From NCBI GenBank assembly GCA_947494335.1, contig CANLUT010000003.1, positions 86,682-135,380 of the forward strand: a stretch of 48,699 nucleotides of DNA, given 5' to 3'. Both the position numbers and the translations under genes were made by a program. This document shows, piece after piece, positions 7,607 through 38,128 of the stretch (position 1 is the stretch's first letter; each line of letters opens with the position of its first letter). This DNA is from Oligoflexales bacterium. Its GTDB lineage: Bacteria > Bdellovibrionota_B > Oligoflexia > Oligoflexales > RGVZ01. The notes below the pieces were generated by a model. The model was given only the letters and a program-made list of their open reading frames with translations. It ran no database searches and was not told the origin of the DNA.

Positions 7607-8284
7607 ATGCAGAACGACTCTTCACTAATTTACTCAATTCGCGAACGGCCCCTGACAGTTGCGATAACGCTGTCAATCGTCGTGCATTTCATGACGGCTA
7701 ACGCACTTAATATTCTGACAACACGTCCGCAAAAGATTGACTTTCAGCCTGTCAAAGTTCGTATTGCGGAGCCTGTTCCGAAGGAAATCCCACCGCCCCC
7801 CAAGAAGAAGGAACCCCCAAAAAAACAGACGGCTGCACCCAACCAACAGGTTGCCCCTCAGGCCCCAGTGACCGATGTGCCTATCCAGGGTGTGACCAAG
7901 GATTCATTATCTACCGAAGGCACGATGGCCGCTCCCGTTGGTAACACTCTCATGGTGGAAGACAGCGGGAAAAGACTGAAGGACGTGGAGGCGTTGCGTG
8001 GCGATATGTCTGCGCCGGCAAAACTCATTGCAAGTACGATGGTGACACCTCCTTATACTGAGGAAGCATTGGACGCCCTGATTCAGGGCTCTTTCATTGT
8101 CGATGTTTACGTCGGTTTAGATGGAACGGTTCGAGAGGCGGAGCTCCGAAAAAAAATCGGTTATGGAATGGACGTACGAGTGATTGATGCAGTGAAGGGC
8201 TCAAAGTTTATTCCCAGAAAAAACAGATTCGGAGTGGATGAGGAAGGGTGGACGGAGCTCAAGTTTACGCTGGTTATACCATGA
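7607..8284 (+). CDS. TonB-like energy transducer / TonB C-terminal domain protein
   Basis: This 225-residue protein has an N-terminal membrane anchor (about residues 17-37) preceded by a short cytoplasmic stretch. A Pro/Lys-rich periplasmic spacer follows (EIPPPPKKKEPPKK, about residues 60-75). The C-terminal TonB-like domain (about residues 130-225) carries PPYTEEALDALIQGSFIVDVYVGLDGTVREAEL and ends in a beta-strand, ELKFTLVIP. TonB proteins pass proton-motive force to outer-membrane receptors through ExbB/ExbD. No exbBD genes or TonB-dependent receptor lie nearby, so its partners must be elsewhere. AgmX/periplasmic-motor-type TonB-domain proteins are an alternative. The gene is divergent from livJ, and no clear Shine-Dalgarno precedes the ATG. 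Confidence 0.75.
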   Translation: MQNDSSLIYSIRERPLTVAITLSIVVHFMTANALNILTTRPQKIDFQPVKVRIAEPVPKEIPPPPKKKEPPKKQTAAPNQQVAPQAPVTDVPIQGVTKDSLSTEGTMAAPVGNTLMVEDSGKRLKDVEALRGDMSAPAKLIASTMVTPPYTEEALDALIQGSFIVDVYVGLDGTVREAELRKKIGYGMDVRVIDAVKGSKFIPRKNRFGVDEEGWTELKFTLVIP

Positions 8285-8455
8285 ACTTAGGAAGAAGTGC
8301 GTCGATCGAGGCCCTCTATCTGTCAGAACTAAATTTAGCTTTTTTATGAATTAATCAAAAACAATTCCCCGTAGGTTTAGGCCTGTGTCTCATATGTCTT
8401 CGGCAAGACCCGATAACCAATGAGATACGGGGATCAGCCGCGACGGGAGGATTTT

Positions 8456-11143
8456 GTGAGCCAACTTGCCAAATTAAAAGTACTCATTGTCGATGACGAA
8501 AAAGAAATTGGGCAACTGATCAAGGAAATCATAGACCCGCATTATGACGGTGTGCTTGCGTGCTCGGGCAAGGATGCTCTGAGTATTCTGAAAAAAGACG
8601 CGTCTTCAATGGTCTGCATCGTCTCAGATTATAATATGCCGGACATGAATGGAATCCAGTTGAGACAGGCGTTCCCGGAACGTTGCATGGAAATTCCTTT
8701 CATTCTGCTGTCAGGCTATATTACCAAAGAGGATGCCCTAGCCGGCTTGGATGCAAAAATTTCGGCGATGATGCCAAAACCATTTGATCCAGCAGAGCTC
8801 ATTGAGCTTGTGAAAAAGCACGCTCAAGCGCGTGAATCAACGATTCGTGAGCGCGTTATGCTTGAGCAGATTTTTATAGAAGAGGCATCTTCAATCGTCG
8901 ATGATCTTGAACCTCTAATTATGTCGCTTGAGCAGCGTCCAAACGACATTGATACGATCAACACCATTTTTCGATTGGTCCATACAATTAAAGGCTCAAG
9001 CGGTGTCCTTGAGTCTTCCCATGTGCGCATGTATGTGCACAAATACGAAGATCTCCTCTCTAAAATGAAAAGCGGAGCCGTAAAAGTCACTCCGGATGTG
9101 GTGTCAATATTGCTTCAAGGTTTTGATGTTGTTCGTAAAATGATAAACGCGCTGAAGATTGGCGAAGAGTGGACCCAGGATGTTGAAAACCTGGCTAAAA
9201 TCTTCGACTACAGTTCGACAATAAGCGTCGCTGAGTCCCCTGAGCAGGTTGCCTCCGGGGCGATTGCAGTTCCAGCGACCGAAGTTTCCAAAGAATCAGT
9301 GAATGTTCCTACGATCATGCTTGATGAGTTTATGGAGCTTTCAGGTGAGATCACAGTTATCAGGAACATGGTGAATAAACTTGTCAAAGTGATCGAGAAG
9401 GAATCACCCAGTAACAAGAATGTTCAGCATCTTGGCGAGCTTCTCGACGAAATGCATAAGATTAATTCTGGAATTCAGGGGCGATTAGTTGAAACCAGAA
9501 AGGTGCCACTTAGCAAGGTGTTTCGTCCGCTGCCAAGAACCGTAAGGGACACGGCGAAAAACTTGGGCAAAACAATTGATTTCAAGTTGGAGGGTGACCA
9601 GATACGTGTCGACTCGTCTTTGGCACAAGTGCTATCTGACTCGCTCATTCATATTGTTAGAAATTCAATCGATCACGGAATCGAAACGCGAGAAATGCGG
9701 ATTCAGCGAAAAAAGAAGCCAGAAGGTAGCTTGACCATCAGAGCCTTCGAGCGTGGTGAGGAGGTTGTTGTAGCTATCCAAGATGATGGTGGAGGCCTTG
9801 ATCCTGTCAAGATCAAAAAGAAAGCCGTTGAGAGAGGATTGTACTCCGCCAGTGACGTTGATCGCCTATCTTTAGCCAAGATTCATTCGTTGATATTTGA
9901 ATCAGGTTTTTCCACTGCCAATCAGATCACAGATGTCTCAGGACGCGGTGTCGGAATGGATATGGTTCGATCGTCCGTCCAAAAGGTCAAAGGACGGGTG
10001 GAAATCGATTCAGAATTGGGATCTGGTACGACTTTTTATCTGCATTTACCGATTCCAAAATCAGTTTTGATCATCAATTCGCTCGTTGTGGAGACATGTG
10101 GACGGGATTTTGCGATTCCTCAGGATAGTGTTGCAAGGCTTCTAAGGCTGGACGGAAAAAAGATTAGACAGTTTATTAAGGAACTACAAGGGACTGCTGT
10201 TTTGGATTACGAGGGTGAGCTGATTCCGCTCGTTGATCTCGGTGAAGCGCTGAGCCTGAGAGAGGCGAATATAAAGCGTCTACTTGGAGAAGAGGTATTG
10301 AATATTCTCATAGCGCGAACTGATGCGGCATACTTTGCTCTGTGCGTCGATCGCGTGCTCGACAGTGAGGAAATCGTTGTAAAAGTTGTTGGCAAACATA
10401 TGGAGCGTCTTAAGGTATACGCTGGCGCGACTTTTATGGGTGATGGAGGCGTTGGGCTCGTGCTCAATATCGACGGAATCGCGGAAGTTTCAGGTGTTAC
10501 AAGCATCCGACAAGCCGCAGCTGACCAGGTGACCCTAGATCAGACCACAGAGATGCCTTCAAACTTAAAGGATGTCCTGCTTTTTGATTTGTGGTGCCAC
10601 GGAGTATTTGCGATTCCGTTAACTGCAGTCCATCGACTCGAAGAAATTCAAAAATCATCGCTTCAGCAAGTTGGGGACCGAGGTGTCGTTATTTATCGCG
10701 ATCAGGTCATGCCAATTGTGGATTTGACGGACGCCCTGGGTGTTAAGGTTCAACACGAAGAGGAGCGGTCAGATCAGGTAGCTATCCCTGTTGTTGTATC
10801 AAAAATCAATGAGCGCTACGTTGGATTTGCGGTGCGCTCTATCGGAGACGTGGCGTCAATGCCGACAAGTATTGATATGCTTGTACGAGATAGAAAGCTG
10901 ATCGAAGGATCATTTGAAGTGGACGGTCGTGTTGTAGCGTTGGTCGATGTTTTTGCAACGTTGGACGCGCAGGGCATACTGAAGGCGATCGATCCTGTCA
11001 CCAATTTAAAAAATCTTTCGTACGGTGTACAAAACGATCCGGCAACTTCTACCCATAAGGCGTTAGCCGGTGATTTGGCTAAAATCGAAAAAAAGCCGGA
11101 AGAGTCCACAGCATTTGCGGGCGATGGATGGGGTCTTTTTTGA
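8456..11143 (+). CDS. Hybrid chemotaxis kinase CheA: REC-HPt-P3-P4-CheW-CheW
   Basis: This 895-residue cytoplasmic kinase has a receiver domain (about 5-125; acidic pair D13/D14, phospho-acceptor D58, Lys108). An HPt domain follows (His176 in LVHTIKGSSG), then a CheA-type dimerisation segment and the ATPase domain (N-box IVRNSIDHGIE, G1 DDGGGLDP, G2 GRGVGMDMV). Two CheW-like domains end the protein (about 535-690 and 700-840). No P2 domain is seen. I chose GTG at 8456 because GGGAGG sits five bases upstream; an ATG at 8420 would add 12 residues. It should autophosphorylate His176 and may phosphorylate its own receiver. A CCCGATAA at 8409-8416 resembles a sigma-28 -10 box, but the -35 is weak. 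It is upstream of a second kinase of related architecture. Confidence 0.9.
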   Translation: MSQLAKLKVLIVDDEKEIGQLIKEIIDPHYDGVLACSGKDALSILKKDASSMVCIVSDYNMPDMNGIQLRQAFPERCMEIPFILLSGYITKEDALAGLDAKISAMMPKPFDPAELIELVKKHAQARESTIRERVMLEQIFIEEASSIVDDLEPLIMSLEQRPNDIDTINTIFRLVHTIKGSSGVLESSHVRMYVHKYEDLLSKMKSGAVKVTPDVVSILLQGFDVVRKMINALKIGEEWTQDVENLAKIFDYSSTISVAESPEQVASGAIAVPATEVSKESVNVPTIMLDEFMELSGEITVIRNMVNKLVKVIEKESPSNKNVQHLGELLDEMHKINSGIQGRLVETRKVPLSKVFRPLPRTVRDTAKNLGKTIDFKLEGDQIRVDSSLAQVLSDSLIHIVRNSIDHGIETREMRIQRKKKPEGSLTIRAFERGEEVVVAIQDDGGGLDPVKIKKKAVERGLYSASDVDRLSLAKIHSLIFESGFSTANQITDVSGRGVGMDMVRSSVQKVKGRVEIDSELGSGTTFYLHLPIPKSVLIINSLVVETCGRDFAIPQDSVARLLRLDGKKIRQFIKELQGTAVLDYEGELIPLVDLGEALSLREANIKRLLGEEVLNILIARTDAAYFALCVDRVLDSEEIVVKVVGKHMERLKVYAGATFMGDGGVGLVLNIDGIAEVSGVTSIRQAAADQVTLDQTTEMPSNLKDVLLFDLWCHGVFAIPLTAVHRLEEIQKSSLQQVGDRGVVIYRDQVMPIVDLTDALGVKVQHEEERSDQVAIPVVVSKINERYVGFAVRSIGDVASMPTSIDMLVRDRKLIEGSFEVDGRVVALVDVFATLDAQGILKAIDPVTNLKNLSYGVQNDPATSTHKALAGDLAKIEKKPEESTAFAGDGWGLF

Positions 11144-11202
11144 CCCAGTAGTGTCATCATTTGGTGACAAAAAAATGTCGTTAAAATGCCAAATATACTG
11201 AA

Positions 11203-11232
11203 TTGACAGCCATTTCAGCGCGGCTTGATAAT
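11203..11232 (+). promoter_or_regulatory. Sigma-70-type promoter for the second CheA operon
   Basis: A perfect -35 box TTGACA (11203-11208) is followed after 18 bases by GATAAT (11227-11232), five of six matches to TATAAT. Initiation near 11239 would leave a leader of about 37 bases before the ATG at 11276. This would allow the second kinase, CheW, CheB and CheR to be expressed independently of the first kinase. Confidence 0.6.
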
Positions 11233-11275
11233 GTCTTAGGAAACTATTTTTTTTAGGGACCTTCAAGGTTCCGAC

Positions 11276-14032
11276 ATGAGCGAGGACTCTGTGGCCAGCA
11301 TCCCTAAAGAGGCATTGGCGGAATACATCGGCGAAACGCGCGAAATGTGTCAGCGCATTTCAATCGGCATGGGTTTAGTTGAAAAGAATCAACATGATGA
11401 CGAAACGCTGAACTCGATTTATCGTGACATGCATTCCATCAAAGGCGGATCTCATCTTTTTGGCTTTAAACGAATCGGTCAGCTTACTCATGCGATGGAA
11501 ACGGCACTGGATCCTGTTCGTCATAAAGAGATTCTCCTCAATCCAAAATTAGTTGACGCTCTTTATCTGGGCTTGGACGCCGTCGCCAGAATCTTGTCGC
11601 TCATTGAGATGAACGGTGATGATAGTCAGATGAGCTTGGATGAAATAGGTCCGGTAGTCCAAAAGATCGCAGACCTGACTTTTCAAGCTTTGAACTCTTC
11701 TCAAGCCACTGAAGGAAAAAACCATGACGAATCTGAGGTTTTGACAAACAGTATGCCCAAGCTTGATGACTCAATGGCACGAGACGAGCTGGAGAACGCT
11801 CCCAAGCTGATGGGCTCTAACGTAGAAATAAAAATAAATGAAACCTCAAAAGACCGAAGAGAGCAGGTTTCAGTAAAGGATGAATTTAACCTGGATCCTA
11901 GTACGGTTCGGATTCCGGTCGGGCTTCTTGATAACTTGATGAACCTTGTTGGTGAGCTGGTTTTAGTCAGAAATCAAATGCTTCAATTTAGTCAAATTCA
12001 GCGGAACGGTGAGTTTCTGAAACTCTCCCAAACGCTCAGTGTTGTGACCTCGGAAATTCAGAATGATGTGATGAAAACAAGGATGCAGCCTATTGGTCCC
12101 TTTCTTTCGAAGTTTCATAGGCTAGTACGTGATTTGGCGCGCGATCTCGACAAGAACATAGATTTTAGAATTGAGGGGGCTGACACTGAGTTGGACAAGA
12201 CTCTTATAGAGGCTGTCAAAGATCCGCTGACACACCTGATTCGTAACAGTATCGATCACGGAATTGAAACCGGCGCGGATCGCCAACGTTTAGGCAAGCA
12301 TCCCGTCGGAATGGTCAAGATCAAGTCTTACCATGAAGGTGGACACGTTATCATTGAGGTGAGTGACGATGGCTCGGGTCTTTCGCCAGTTAAAATAGCA
12401 AAGAAAGCCGTTGAACGTGGGCTTGTGCCAAGTGAGCAAGTTGGGAAAATGTCAGCTAATAGTATTCGGGCCCTAATATTTCTGCCAGGTTTTACGACGG
12501 CAGAATCAGTGACTGATATTTCAGGTCGTGGCGTTGGCATGGATGTCGTCAAGACGAACATTGAGCGCATTGGTGGACATATCAATTTGGAAAGCACAGT
12601 CGGAGCTGGGACAACGGTGAGAATGAGTATTCCACTCACAATGGCTATTATTCCTGCTCTTATGGTGTCCTCATCAGGGCAGTCATACGCTATTCCACAG
12701 TCAAAGGTTATCGAGTTAGTTCGGATTGAAGATTCAGGTCGCGACGACCAGCGCATACAGTGGCTTCAAGGTCAGGCGATGATTCGCTTGCGAGGTAAGC
12801 TCTTGTCGGTAGTTGGTTTAAGCGCGACTCTTGCTGGGAGGCCCGCGTCCGACGCCCTTAAGGTGACTCGGTTGAATAATTTGGTGATTTTGAGAAGCGA
12901 AGGCCAATCGTTTGCCTTGGCGGTCGACGCGGTTTTGGATAATTCGGACATTGTCGTAAAGCCTCTGGCTCAAGTTGTAAAGAATGTCTCGGCGTACTCT
13001 GGGGCAACCGTGATGGGAGATGGATCTGTGGTGTTGATCCTTGACGTTGACGGATTGTCCCGTTTGAGTTTGGTCGCAACCGTGGGTAAGCCTTCATCAG
13101 AGGACGATCCAAACCCTGTCGGGACGAGCATAAAACCTGACTCTGCTGAATATCTCCTCTTGGATCTTGGGGCTCCCGGATTATTTGCCGCTCCCTTGTG
13201 TTTAGTAAATCGGCTCGAGGTTTTTTCTCCGAGCGATGTTCAGTTTTCCGGTGACTTACCTGTCGTTCGCTATCGGGATACTCTGCTTCCGATTCTTTCG
13301 ATTGCTGAAAGACTTGGGTTTACGCGTTTTAGTCCAAAAGACTTATTAGGATCGGACAAATTCAGCGTTATTGTCGTTAGTAAGTCCAATAGACTTTTTG
13401 GACTTGCAGTTAAGAAAATTCTCGATGTGGTTTCAATAGATATGGATATTGACGGGGAGATATCCGATCGAAGTGGAATTCTCGGATCAGTCGTCTTCGG
13501 TAAAAATGTTATTTCGGTTATCGACGTTTTGGGTGTTATCGATAGTTTAATACACGGCTTACCTACAAGGTTGGTGGATCGGGGCTCAGAGATTGCTCCG
13601 ACTGCCACCATTTCAGCCAGCCCTAGCGCCCGAACACCGGATTCAAGGACGTTAAAGATTTTGTTAGCTGAAGACACGAGCTTCTTCCGTCGATATGTTT
13701 CAGCTTACCTTCGCTCTCTTGGTCATGAAGTTGTGGCGGCTACAAATGGAGACGATGCATTTAGACGTCTTGAAATGAGTCATCCATCAGAGTTTGACCT
13801 TGTATTGACAGATATTGAGATGCCAATTCTTGATGGATTCTCGTTGATGCACAAGATTCGTATGCGACCAGAATTTTCAGGTATCCCGGTCATTGCATTG
13901 ACAACGAAGTTTCACGACTCAGATATAAAAAAGGGTAAAGATGCGGGATTTTCTGCGTATCTTGAGAAGCTGAATGCTGAGCTTCTAGAGCAGACGATCA
14001 AGAAGTTATTTGATGTAAAGCAAGCGGTTTAA
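11276..14032 (+). CDS. cheA: Hybrid chemotaxis kinase CheA: HPt-P3-P4-CheW-CheW-REC
   Basis: This 918-residue kinase has an N-terminal HPt domain (His53 in MHSIKGGSHLFG), then an acidic linker. The dimerisation domain follows (IPVGLLDNLMNLVGELVLVRNQ near 225), then the ATPase domain (N-box LIRNSIDHGIE, G1 DDGSGLSP, G2 GRGVGMDVV). Two CheW-like domains occupy about 460-610 and 620-760. A C-terminal receiver (about 800-918) has phospho-acceptor D846 in LTDIEMP, TT in the Thr position and a Lys in LEKLN. P2 is absent. It heads a tight cluster with CheW, CheB and CheR, so it is the better candidate for the main kinase. The start has AAGG seven bases upstream. Confidence 0.92.
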   Translation: MSEDSVASIPKEALAEYIGETREMCQRISIGMGLVEKNQHDDETLNSIYRDMHSIKGGSHLFGFKRIGQLTHAMETALDPVRHKEILLNPKLVDALYLGLDAVARILSLIEMNGDDSQMSLDEIGPVVQKIADLTFQALNSSQATEGKNHDESEVLTNSMPKLDDSMARDELENAPKLMGSNVEIKINETSKDRREQVSVKDEFNLDPSTVRIPVGLLDNLMNLVGELVLVRNQMLQFSQIQRNGEFLKLSQTLSVVTSEIQNDVMKTRMQPIGPFLSKFHRLVRDLARDLDKNIDFRIEGADTELDKTLIEAVKDPLTHLIRNSIDHGIETGADRQRLGKHPVGMVKIKSYHEGGHVIIEVSDDGSGLSPVKIAKKAVERGLVPSEQVGKMSANSIRALIFLPGFTTAESVTDISGRGVGMDVVKTNIERIGGHINLESTVGAGTTVRMSIPLTMAIIPALMVSSSGQSYAIPQSKVIELVRIEDSGRDDQRIQWLQGQAMIRLRGKLLSVVGLSATLAGRPASDALKVTRLNNLVILRSEGQSFALAVDAVLDNSDIVVKPLAQVVKNVSAYSGATVMGDGSVVLILDVDGLSRLSLVATVGKPSSEDDPNPVGTSIKPDSAEYLLLDLGAPGLFAAPLCLVNRLEVFSPSDVQFSGDLPVVRYRDTLLPILSIAERLGFTRFSPKDLLGSDKFSVIVVSKSNRLFGLAVKKILDVVSIDMDIDGEISDRSGILGSVVFGKNVISVIDVLGVIDSLIHGLPTRLVDRGSEIAPTATISASPSARTPDSRTLKILLAEDTSFFRRYVSAYLRSLGHEVVAATNGDDAFRRLEMSHPSEFDLVLTDIEMPILDGFSLMHKIRMRPEFSGIPVIALTTKFHDSDIKKGKDAGFSAYLEKLNAELLEQTIKKLFDVKQAV

Positions 14033-14046
14033 ATTGGAGGTAGACA

Positions 14047-14526
14047 ATGCAGTATCAGACAGACATTGCGGCAACGGGCGGTGCAAATGTCCCCAAAATT
14101 TTGAGATTACAATACTCGACGTTTTATGTGGCTGGCCGGATGTATGGCATTGATGTCAGTCGCGTACAGGAAGTTGTTAAGCCGATACCGATGACAAAAA
14201 TTCCATTGGCAGAAAGTTTTGTGCACGGCTTGATAAATCTTCGGGGTCAGGTTGTGACTGCTGTCAGCATTCACGAGCTTTTTGGTCTCAAGGAAAAGGC
14301 TAAAGTCGACATGATGAACGTCATCTGCAAAGTTGATGGTTTCCTTGTGTCTCTATTGGTGGATGAGATAGGGGACGTTATCGAGCTTGAGACAAAGAAT
14401 TGTGAAGCTGTTCCGAACACTATTTCTTCGGCTGTTAAGCAATACATGACCGGGGTTTACAAGGTCGCTGACGATCTGATGAGTGTGATTGATGTGGACA
14501 AGATCTTTAAAGTTCTAAATGGCTAA
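14047..14526 (+). CDS. cheW: Chemotaxis adaptor protein CheW
   Basis: This 159-residue protein is a single CheW domain. It has VAGRMYGIDVSRVQEVVKP near residue 30, the hallmark FVHGLINLRGQVVTAVSIHELFGL near residue 57, and a C-terminal ISSAVKQYMTGVYKVADDLMSVIDVDKIF. CheW links receptors to the CheA kinase in cytoplasmic arrays. GGAGG lies six bases before the ATG, and the gene is only 14 bases after the kinase stop, so it belongs to the same operon. It may bind both kinases of this cluster or compete with their own built-in CheW domains. Confidence 0.95.
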   Translation: MQYQTDIAATGGANVPKILRLQYSTFYVAGRMYGIDVSRVQEVVKPIPMTKIPLAESFVHGLINLRGQVVTAVSIHELFGLKEKAKVDMMNVICKVDGFLVSLLVDEIGDVIELETKNCEAVPNTISSAVKQYMTGVYKVADDLMSVIDVDKIFKVLNG

Positions 14527-14547: not shown

Positions 14548-15663
14548 ATGCGACTACTTATTGTAGATGATTCCGTTGTGTTTCGTTCCCAGATTAGGAC
14601 AGCGGTGGAGTCTTCTATTGCGGTAAACTCTATCGGCACTGCCGCCAACGGGAAAATCGCTCTTCAAAAGTTGCAGCAAGAGTCCTATGACGTGATGACT
14701 TTGGATATGGAAATGCCAGAGATGAATGGCATGGAGACCCTTAAGGAAATTAGGTCACGCGGAATTCCCATCAAGGTTGTGGTATTTGCGGCCCAAAATC
14801 TTCGTGGCGCGACGTCGGCGATGGAAGCTTTCAAGCTTGGAGCGATCGATGTAGTTTCAAAGCCGGATGGTTCTAACGAGTCTTTTGATATGGCGTTACA
14901 ACATGTGCGCGATCAGTTATTGCCGATTCTGAAGGAAGTGCATCAAAAGAGTGTGAAGGCGCAACCTAAGGCGCCGATAGCAGGATCGTCGGATAGGCAT
15001 CCAGTTGCGGACGAAGTTAGCACACAAGTACCATCTGGTAATGCCGAGACGTCAAACTACCGAAAGGTTCTAGTTGAGACTTTTAGGCCAAAGATAGTTG
15101 TAGTTGGAAGCTCTACAGGCGGTCCAAATGCTCTGGAAACTTTATTTACAGGTATTCGTGCTCCTGTAACAGTGCCTATTTTGATTGTTCAACATATGCC
15201 ACCTGTGTTTACCGCAAGTCTTGCGGCTCGACTTGGAGCGATCACGGGCCTTGATTCGTTTGAAGCAAAGCATGGAGAGCCAGTAGTGACAGGGCGAATT
15301 TATGTAGCGCCGGGTGATTACCATATGGGACTTCTAAAATCTGGCGATGGCCTAATCATTAATTTGTCCCAAGGCGAGAAACGCTGCAATGTACGACCTG
15401 CTGTCGATGTGTTGTTTGAAGACGTTGCCAAGTGTATGCCTAACCAGGTGGGAGCGTTCGTATTAACTGGGATGGGTGAGGATGGAATGCTGGGGTGCAA
15501 GGCTATCAAGAACGCATTTGGAGCGGTCATGATCCAAGACAGAGAGACTTCGGTCGTTTGGGGGATGCCAGGTGCAGTGCACGCTGCTGGGGCGTTTGAT
15601 CAAATGGGTAGCCTTCAGGACTGCGCGCGAGTTCTGCAGGTTTGGTCAATGGGGGCAAGATGA
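14548..15663 (+). CDS. cheB: Chemotaxis response regulator protein-glutamate methylesterase CheB
   Basis: This 371-residue protein has a receiver domain (about 1-120; D53 in TLDMEMP, Lys in VSKPDG). A variable linker (about 125-175) leads to the methylesterase/deamidase domain. The catalytic triad is visible as S189 in GSSTGGP, H216 in VQHMPP and D312 in GMGEDGM. Phosphorylated CheB removes methyl groups from receptor glutamates, giving adaptation. It is preceded by cheW (21-base gap), and its stop overlaps the cheR start. The binding site is weak (GGGG). No CheD accompanies it. Confidence 0.95.
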   Translation: MRLLIVDDSVVFRSQIRTAVESSIAVNSIGTAANGKIALQKLQQESYDVMTLDMEMPEMNGMETLKEIRSRGIPIKVVVFAAQNLRGATSAMEAFKLGAIDVVSKPDGSNESFDMALQHVRDQLLPILKEVHQKSVKAQPKAPIAGSSDRHPVADEVSTQVPSGNAETSNYRKVLVETFRPKIVVVGSSTGGPNALETLFTGIRAPVTVPILIVQHMPPVFTASLAARLGAITGLDSFEAKHGEPVVTGRIYVAPGDYHMGLLKSGDGLIINLSQGEKRCNVRPAVDVLFEDVAKCMPNQVGAFVLTGMGEDGMLGCKAIKNAFGAVMIQDRETSVVWGMPGAVHAAGAFDQMGSLQDCARVLQVWSMGAR

Positions 15664-16550
15664 AGCTACAAAATGAATCAACAGTTACGGCTTTGTCTCC
15701 AGAGCAGATCAAATTTTTCGCCGACTATATTGAACAAAAGCTTGGAATAATCTACGCCAAAGATAATTACTATCAGCTTGAACGACGCTTAAGTGATATT
15801 GCTACGACGCTTGGCGTTGGGTCTGTCATTGAACTCTGGACCAAGGCGCAGACTGGCATTTCAGGTCAATTTCAGAGTCTTCTTCTTGATCTTTCTACTA
15901 ACAACGAGACCTCTTTCTTTCGCGATCCAGGGTTATTTAAGGCAATAGAAGAGCGGATTCTCGTTGAGCCGCGTTTTGGCGGCGACAATCCTCTGCCTCT
16001 GAGAATTTGGTGCTGCGCAACAAGTACTGGCCAGGAGGTTTACTCCATGGCCATATTATTGCATGCGTGGAAATTACAAAATCCCCGCCGCTCATTTTCT
16101 TTCTTGGCTACGGATTACTCGTTGCGTGTCCTGAAGCAGGCGGAAGAGGGAAAATACTCTCAGCTCGAAATTCAGCGGGGATTACCAGAGGCAATGATTA
16201 ATCGCTTTTTTAAGCCAGAGAAGCATGCATCAAATCCAGCTGTCGCTACAGGAAGCTGGATCGTTACGGAAGAGCTCAAGAAAGGTATCACTTACAAGCA
16301 GCAAAACCTTCTCGATGACTTTGGTGGCATTGGGCCTTTTGAAATCGTGCTATGTCGCAACGTGTTGATTTATCAAAACGTTGAAAATAAAAGACGCATA
16401 ATTGCCGAAATTGCCCGCCGCCTTGTGCCCGGTGGATATTTGGTTCTGGGAGCAGCAGAAAGTCTCATGGGACTAAGCGAAGACTTTGAGATGCGTCAAA
16501 TTGATCGGGCTGTCGTCTATCAACGTAAGCAGGATTTGAAGACACGCTAA
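15660..16550 (+). CDS. cheR: Chemotaxis protein-glutamate O-methyltransferase CheR
   Basis: This 296-residue SAM-dependent methyltransferase has an N-terminal helical domain. It carries TNNETSFFRDP near residue 80, a SAM-binding loop CCATSTGQEVYSMAILL (usually STGEEPYS) and the C-terminal IVLCRNVLIYQNVENK followed by LVPGGYLVLGAAESL. It adds methyl groups to receptor glutamates, opposing CheB. I chose ATG at 15660: it overlaps the cheB stop as ATGA and has GGGGG just upstream, while a TTG at 15642 would add six unconserved residues. It ends the chemosensory operon, facing a convergent gene 24 bases away. Confidence 0.94.
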   Translation: MKLQNESTVTALSPEQIKFFADYIEQKLGIIYAKDNYYQLERRLSDIATTLGVGSVIELWTKAQTGISGQFQSLLLDLSTNNETSFFRDPGLFKAIEERILVEPRFGGDNPLPLRIWCCATSTGQEVYSMAILLHAWKLQNPRRSFSFLATDYSLRVLKQAEEGKYSQLEIQRGLPEAMINRFFKPEKHASNPAVATGSWIVTEELKKGITYKQQNLLDDFGGIGPFEIVLCRNVLIYQNVENKRRIIAEIARRLVPGGYLVLGAAESLMGLSEDFEMRQIDRAVVYQRKQDLKTR

Positions 16551-36892: not shown

Positions 36893-38128
36893 TTAAGCTG
36901 GTCTGGCCAATTTGTGGGCATTGCCAGTTCTTCCCAATCGCTGCTGGGTTTCAGACAGCTTTCGTCTAACTTTATCAAAACCCGGATCTATCTGATATGC
37001 CAACTGAAATGTTGCTACTGCATCTGCAACCTTTCCCTTGAGCTCCAACGCAAGCCCCAAATTGAACAAAACGCGCGGATCATTTGGATCGATTGAAAGG
37101 GCGAGCCTGTAACGATCGATGCCCTTATCAATGAAGCTTTGCCTCACGTACGCCAGGCCTAAAGAGTTCAAAGTTGAAACGTCGGATTGTTCGAGGTCCA
37201 ATGCTTTCTCCAAGTTCAAGGCGGCTTTTTCAAAGTCTTTAGTTTTCAGATAAAGATGACCAAGGCCTTTGTATGCCGCCGCTAAGGTCGGAGATAACTT
37301 TAGAGTCAGCTTAAAATACTCTTCAGCATCTGCAAAACGGCGAAGTTCCATCTGCGCGGCGGCAATGATCAATGGATATTTTGGATTTTCGGGACTCAAG
37401 TTATGCAGAATCTTGGCACCTTGGACGACTCCGGCGTGGTCTTTCTGCTCTTCAGATATTTTTAGTAACTGCTTGTAGCCGTCGATATAGTCGGGATTGT
37501 TTGCCACAGCTTGCTTGAAGCATGAAATTGCCTTTTCCGGATTTTGTCGAAGAAGTTCTATTTTGCCAAGTCCGCAGGTGGCTCTCGCAGACTGTGGCTT
37601 CATAGTCAACGCTTCGGTAAACAGTGCTTCAGCAACCCATAGCTCTTTTCTTTCAAGATAATCTTCCGCTCGCTCCAGTAATAACTGAAGATGATCTGGA
37701 TTTTTCTCGTATGAGAGGATGAGCCGTAACTGATCACAAAAGTCCTGATACGAAAATGGCTTAAGTAAATAACCTGATATACCGCCTTCGCTGGCAAGCA
37801 CAATATCGGCTTTTTGATTTTCCATTGTCATGAGTAAGTACGGTGTTGCCCGATAACGCGGGTCTTTGCGGAACTCTCGACAAATTTCTAGACCATTCTT
37901 ATCCGGCAGTTGCCATTCGGCTATAAATAATCCTATTTTTCGCGTGCGCGCAGCCGCTCGGCCTTCTTCAGCAGAGGACACGAATAGTGCTTGTTCGCAT
38001 TGCAAACGATTGAGGAAATTTTGCATGCTAACTCGAAAATGCATCCGCGGTTCGATGATTAAGATCCATCGCTCGCCCAAAAAATCTCGAAGATCCTGCC
38101 AAAGTGCCAAAGTCGTTGTCCTTTCCAT
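36893..38128 (-). CDS. Receiver-TPR protein with Asp-to-Glu receiver (atypical response regulator)
   Basis: This 411-residue protein joins an N-terminal receiver (about 20-135) to seven or more TPR repeats (about 145-400). The phospho-acceptor position is Glu71 (IAEWQLPDKNG) and the acidic pair is Glu26-Pro27 (ILIIEP), while Thr101 and Lys123 (LLKPF) remain. It therefore looks locked in an active-like or non-phosphorylated state. The TPR part (for example AEEYFKLTLKLSPTLAAAYKGLGHLYL) should bind proteins. A possible sigma-28 promoter lies at 38160-38187, suggesting a motility link. It is divergent from the ABC exporter genes. Confidence 0.85.
   Translation of the reverse strand: MERTTTLALWQDLRDFLGERWILIIEPRMHFRVSMQNFLNRLQCEQALFVSSAEEGRAAARTRKIGLFIAEWQLPDKNGLEICREFRKDPRYRATPYLLMTMENQKADIVLASEGGISGYLLKPFSYQDFCDQLRLILSYEKNPDHLQLLLERAEDYLERKELWVAEALFTEALTMKPQSARATCGLGKIELLRQNPEKAISCFKQAVANNPDYIDGYKQLLKISEEQKDHAGVVQGAKILHNLSPENPKYPLIIAAAQMELRRFADAEEYFKLTLKLSPTLAAAYKGLGHLYLKTKDFEKAALNLEKALDLEQSDVSTLNSLGLAYVRQSFIDKGIDRYRLALSIDPNDPRVLFNLGLALELKGKVADAVATFQLAYQIDPGFDKVRRKLSETQQRLGRTGNAHKLARPA

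Follow-up and report, generated by a model that had tools for sequence, protein, structure and literature searches.

A candidate CheA-to-CheA cascade: two F5-class chemosensory kinases with receivers at opposite ends in an Oligoflexales bacterium

Chemosensory kinases of the F5 class, known from Azospirillum, R. centenum, Caulobacter and A. caulinodans, have two CheW domains and no P2, are encoded in an operon with CheW, CheB and CheR, and usually follow the order HPt-P3-ATPase-CheW-CheW-REC. We know of no separate role for their doubled CheW domains, and receivers in CheA are usually classed as phosphate sinks. The named F5 loci have one CheA and a CheY. Rare N-terminal receivers in CheA have already been noted by Berry et al. 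(PMC10782961).

In Leptospira, LvrA, with a C-terminal REC, phosphorylates and stimulates the REC-first LvrB encoded in the same operon (PMC5863495); the pair is attributed to gene duplication, and structures are available in which the LvrB REC is helix-linked (PMC5863495, PMC13269768). The hybrid kinase CheA3 of R. centenum phosphorylates a receiver of another hybrid kinase, CheS3 (PMC3868531), and CheA3 and CheA4 of R. sphaeroides, two CheAs from one operon, act together (PMC10782961).

The locus described here lies in a window of 48,699 nucleotides (C3:86682-135380 of a 3.34-Mb genome). It shares with the F5 loci the two CheW domains, the missing P2 and the CheW/CheB/CheR operon, and its CheA2 and the CheA2 receiver (REC2) group with theirs; it differs in an extra, REC-first CheA1 and in the missing operon CheY. 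CheA1 and CheA2 resemble LvrB and LvrA in being encoded side by side with N-terminal and C-terminal receivers, respectively, and CheA1 resembles LvrB in the helix that is predicted to join REC to the domain with the phosphorylatable histidine. Lvr kinases, however, have an ordinary DHp and no receptors, CheW or HPt, whereas CheA1 and CheA2 have CheA-type HPt, P3, P4 and P5; by architecture the two pairs are not homologous, and a Foldseek match to the Lvr-type structure 8vc9 superposes poorly overall. In the R. centenum case CheS3 is a hybrid kinase of another type, the effect is inhibitory, and the pathway controls cyst formation. In the R. sphaeroides pair one kinase lacks P1 and the other a working ATPase, whereas both kinases of the window are complete. 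No earlier description of the CheA1/CheA2 pair was found in a search of the openly accessible literature. The architecture alone is not new; the pair is a new variation on F5 systems. With it the F5 class includes an operon that encodes two kinases, and one loose and one rigid receiver, the latter decayed where its partner is missing, make a testable case of CheA regulating CheA.

The two kinases and their operon

Features are given with window coordinates, strand and evidence; residues of CheA1 are numbered from the ATG at 8420.

8456–11143, plus: cheA1, REC-HPt-P3-HATPase-CheW-CheW (Pfam; Shine-Dalgarno; ortholog start and length)
8480–8812, plus: CheA1 receiver; D70 codon 8627-8629, K120 codon 8777-8779 (Pfam; orthologs)
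8789–8935, plus: predicted continuous REC-HPt helix of CheA1, aa 124-172 (AlphaFold; K120-H188 spacing)
8852–9160, plus: CheA1 HPt (P1); H188 codon 8981-8983 (Pfam; orthologs)
9293–10057, plus: CheA1 P3 (aa 292-360) and HATPase (aa 407-546), with N, G1 and G2 boxes intact (Pfam; AlphaFold; orthologs)
10082–10969, plus: CheA1 tandem CheW domains, P5a aa 555-688 and P5b about aa 716-850 (Pfam; CheW tree)
11203–11232, plus: promoter-like TTGACA-18-GATAAT in the cheA1/cheA2 gap (11/12 consensus; weak evidence)
11276–14032, plus: cheA2, HPt-P3-HATPase-CheW-CheW-REC, 918 aa, P0002 (Pfam; orthologs)
11306–11614, plus: CheA2 HPt (P1); H53 codon 11432-11434 (Pfam; H53 in 26/26 orthologs)
11900–12640, plus: CheA2 P3 and HATPase (Pfam; orthologs)
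12656–13546, plus: CheA2 tandem CheW domains (Pfam; CheW tree)
13556–13645, plus: predicted disordered tether to the C-terminal REC of CheA2, aa 761-790 (AlphaFold; orthologs)
13658–14011, plus: CheA2 receiver; D846 codon 13811-13813 (Pfam; D846 in 26/26 orthologs)
14047–14526, plus: cheW (Pfam)
14548–15663, plus: cheB, REC and methylesterase (Pfam; NCBIfam)
15642–16550, plus: cheR, overlapping cheB (Pfam; loci of relatives)

A sequence-only reading of this DNA had described REC-HPt-ATPase-CheW-CheW beside HPt-ATPase-CheW-CheW-REC, both without P2, and Pfam bears this out. In CheA1 (P0001) the order is REC 21-131, HPt 150-245, H-kinase_dim 292-353 and HATPase 407-546, followed by two CheW domains; in CheA2 it is HPt 13-104, H-kinase_dim 209-268, HATPase 315-455, two CheW domains and REC 795-902. 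The H-kinase_dim match of CheA1, at 21.5 bits, falls marginally below the Pfam cut-off, against 52.3 bits in CheA2. Pfam finds no P2 in either kinase; HPt and P3 are separated by about 40 aa in CheA1, and in CheA2 by some 70 residues that are disordered in the AlphaFold model. NCBIfam gives only general CheA matches for the kinases. That reading also named a lone separate cheW, which stands, and left out the cheB and cheR that follow it.

The longest open reading frame of cheA1 begins at the ATG (907 aa). The GTG at 8456 gives 895 aa and is probably the true start, because a Shine-Dalgarno sequence (GGGAGG) lies about 7 nt upstream of it and a same-genus ortholog is likewise 895 aa long. The earlier H176 and D58, counted from this GTG, are the H188 and D70 used here; H53 and D846 of CheA2 had been placed correctly.

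Across 43 CheA1 orthologs H188 and K120 are present in all, D70 in 42 (with one gap), and the N residue of the ATPase is nearly invariant. AlphaFold predicts that one continuous helix (124-172) joins REC and HPt, in a model whose inter-domain geometry is uncertain (pTM 0.36), and the distance from K120 to H188 is 68 residues in 41/43 orthologs despite identities down to about 35%; the linker after this module differs in length by 17 residues. CheA1 is thus predicted to hold its receiver rigidly locked onto HPt, although the fixed helix could be conserved packing and nothing more. CheA2 is built more loosely: among its 26 orthologs, in which H53, N324, D364, D800, D846 and K898 are invariant, the distance from the second CheW domain to REC ranges over 27-56 residues and that from HPt to P3 over 123-288.

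Promoter-like sites such as that between the two kinase genes are in total fewer in a consensus scan than chance expects. A TonB C-terminal-type gene lies immediately upstream of cheA1 (7607-8284) and is kept there in three same-genus genomes. In G001, a genome of the same genus, a 4.4-kb insertion (L090 9494-13921) splits cheA1 from cheA2, leaving both genes intact. Farther along the window, a REC-TPR protein is encoded on the minus strand (36893-38128).

Descent and distribution

In a tree of the P3-P4-P5-P5 core, CheA1, CheA2 and the remaining two-CheW CheAs form one clade (100/99), inside which the F5 CheAs of Alphaproteobacteria fall together with both kinases. Two CheW domains, found in 99% of F5 CheAs (PMC10782961), are present in both proteins by Pfam; the C-terminal CheY-like domain, which is common though not universal in the class, is present in CheA2, and CheA1 has its REC N-terminally instead. 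By tree and domain content we assign both kinases to the F5 class, CheA2 as an ordinary member and CheA1 as part of a fast-evolving clade (100/100; the CheA2 of these bacteria group at 89/58). In a first, kinase-only tree CheA1 had seemed to fall well away from F5; a constrained tree was 30 log units better and the longer core alignment returned CheA1 to F5, so that the first placement was an artefact of long branches and a short search.

The sequence-only reading had suggested duplication of one hybrid kinase with the receiver moved, and had taken separate domain trees and a search of related genomes as its checks. The core tree places both kinases in the one two-CheW clade, not in distant clades, and ancient paralogy is retained in this form: a recent duplication is ruled out by 32% identity and by the presence of both kinases in two phyla, and the pair lies inside a known class. 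CheA1 and CheA2 probably diverged in an ancestor of both phyla, and for shared genomes their internal branching orders match by eye; AU tests do not distinguish a sister relationship of the two from an earlier branching of CheA1 within F5. The doubled CheW domains, taken earlier as a mark of the duplication, are shared by the F5 class generally. All second CheW domains separate from all first ones (88), which points to doubling as an old, ancestral feature of the class that carries no sign of the CheA1/CheA2 duplication; the second domains of the two kinases form a group of their own, apart from those of other F5 CheAs (98).

Relocation of the receiver between the kinases is probably not what happened. 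REC2 clusters with the C-terminal receivers of other F5 CheAs (95-99) and REC1 with the HPt-REC proteins of the same operons (94), two different groups, although a moved receiver stays compatible with the AU test (p 0.41). The HPt of CheA1 adjoins those of the HPt-REC proteins (95), and an exclusive clade of the CheA1 HPt with all of these is rejected (AU test, p 0.004).

We surveyed 56 genomes of relatives and, by way of a Halobacteriovoraceae MAG, 369 genomes of a second phylum. Of the 56 relatives, most that have either kinase encode CheA1 and CheA2 adjacently or within one operon. In the second phylum CheA1 occurs in 52/369 genomes, CheA2 in 98/369 and both in 48, counts that ignore kinship. 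The four CheA1-only genomes comprise one with a broken CheA2 in the operon (G432, tallied as CheA1-only all the same), two with the gene at a contig edge, and G078. Among the matches listed, the CheA1 clade contains only Oligoflexia/Bdellovibrionota-type genomes, and in 80 named loci the REC-first order appears, among the matches listed, only in an unclassified proteobacterial MAG, Halobacteriovoraceae and Bdellovibrionaceae; the other F5 loci as a rule encode a single CheA, many of them with a CheY. The pair, found together in most relatives that have either kinase and in 48/52 CheA1 genomes, is real and conserved and probably functionally linked, and the cooperation proposed earlier gains support from this co-conservation and from decay of REC1 in one genus without CheA2.

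That genus (G006, G007 and G009) has cheW, cheB and cheR beside CheA1, and in G009 a receptor too. In the N-terminal domain of its CheA1, which no longer scores as a receiver, D25 and K120 are gone and S98 mostly so, a decay that counts as one evolutionary event; the HPt and the N and G boxes are kept. In two other genomes (G029 and G032) CheA2-type kinases near an HPt-REC gene have lost P1 and REC, and in four genomes in which no CheA1 was found CheA2 carries an extra N-terminal HPt. Beside the CheA1 of G032 lies a CheA2-type copy (L094 562-2367) that lacks P1 and whose G2 box is broken; it is likely a pseudokinase.

A possible cascade and its rivals

We tentatively favour a cascade, at a confidence somewhat below an even balance, in which CheA2 phosphorylates and gates CheA1 within one F5 array. 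The system would comprise CheW, CheB, CheR, a soluble PAS receptor and two anciently duplicated CheAs. The most likely route would lead from phosphorylated H53 of CheA2 to D70 of CheA1, where phosphorylation may alter, through the continuous helix, the way H188 is offered to the ATPase of CheA1 or to its targets; the flexibly tethered REC of CheA2 would serve in cis as a sink or for feedback, and CheB and an unlinked CheY (C2:1074-1448) would carry the output to the flagellar motor. The direction and sign of phosphotransfer, the shared array and the output CheY are what we infer, and the predicted geometry favours one direction, from CheA2 to REC1, over the mutual phosphorylation of receivers that the sequence-only reading had offered as an alternative. 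We read REC1 as a gate served by CheA2 because its spacing to HPt is fixed and because it has decayed where CheA2 is missing. The broader claim, that CheA1 is at once an array kinase and a response regulator, with a rigidly fused receiver that a sister CheA phosphorylates and that gates P1, and that this is conserved across Bdellovibrionota/Oligoflexia-type bacteria, is a more doubtful extension.

Several observations count against the cascade. The 132-bp gap between cheA1 and cheA2 with its promoter-like site leaves their co-transcription in some doubt; CheA1 of G078 has an intact REC in a genome with no recognisable CheA2, in a MAG that may be incomplete; in G029 the two kinases are on separate contigs with separate partners; and about half of the second-phylum CheA2 genomes are without CheA1, so that CheA2 does not depend on CheA1.

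The same persistence of CheA2 alone suits the main rival, which we rate as unlikely yet serious: one F5 array would contain both kinases, the receiver of each acting in cis (for example H188 to D70) as sink or feedback with no traffic between the kinases, and the pair would add redundancy or give two settings of the CheB/CheY phosphorylation ratio. CheY-like domains in CheA are mostly sinks or serve HPt dephosphorylation (PMC10782961), and the CheA2 REC is loosely tethered as such a role would have it. The rigid REC1-HPt spacing is unlike a tethered sink, however, and this rival fails to predict that REC1 decays where CheA2 is missing while the HPt and kinase of CheA1 are kept.

A mixed kinase, in which CheA1 and CheA2 form heterodimers or the P1 of one is trans-phosphorylated by the P4 of the other, after the manner of CheA3/CheA4 of R. 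sphaeroides, seems to us distinctly improbable. The genes are adjacent, and the kinases of G029 and G032 without P1 and REC need a partner that supplies HPt; but in L084 it can come from an HPt-REC protein whose gene is close to that of the kinase without P1, both window kinases keep every domain and motif, and their P3 domains have diverged, as the H-kinase_dim scores indicate.

Receptors, CheY and output

The sequence-only reading had noted that no CheY or receptor was close by and that the output was unclear. An operon CheY is indeed absent; a receptor, one of four in the genome, lies 2.8 kb beyond the window's left edge, some 11 kb upstream of cheA1 (soluble, PAS-PAS-PAS-MCP, C3:81930-83840), and relatives have a PAS-MCP in or beside the same operon. 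Three same-genus genomes carry, between cheB and cheR, an unannotated gene of about 318-330 aa and a CheY. Since cheB and cheR overlap in the window, both were probably lost there relative to its congeners, and a search of the window genome, run with no positive control, gave no match to the ~320-aa gene. The missing receptor and unclear output are thus largely an effect of the window edge and of lineage-specific loss of CheY and its neighbour gene.

The CheY at C2:1074-1448 groups (100) with CheYs encoded beside the receptor gene of the operon in a different family of the class, which makes it a candidate output of the system. Flagellin occurs in 48/56 relatives, among them every one that has either kinase (Fisher p 0.001, kinship ignored), and this, with an intact CheA1 in a window genome where no HPt-REC ortholog was found and the rejected HPt clade (p 0.004), leaves very little room for a CheA1 that shares only receptors with CheA2 and drives a separate, non-flagellar output via HPt-REC proteins, even though many relatives have an HPt-REC gene adjoining cheA1 or cheR, and the trees place the REC and HPt of these proteins next to those of CheA1 (94, 95).

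Some further genes were observed in passing. In relatives a conserved 280-330 aa gene lies between cheB and cheY/cheR (L089 13667-14656, L093 2247-3155, L103 12986-13828, L110 6673-7632), with a weak DUF4388 match and, in one, a weak Hpt match. A globin-like gene beside the operon's PAS receptor in one family (L097 11854-12492, L103 5152-5805) hints at oxygen sensing. At C5 ~139-143 kb a degenerate CheA-like protein of 613 aa (L012 6791-8632; NTLKEG with no His, weak kinase score of 41 bits) is encoded next to a divergent 563-aa MCP (L012 4982-6673), perhaps a pseudokinase system. A second chemosensory cluster (L013 8028-11431, C5:219-222 kb) encodes a STAS-like protein, a 750-aa CheA with one CheW domain and a CheW, and a CheV-like (CheW-REC) gene follows one for a REC protein whose C-terminal region is long (L014 3174-5134, C2:767-769 kb).
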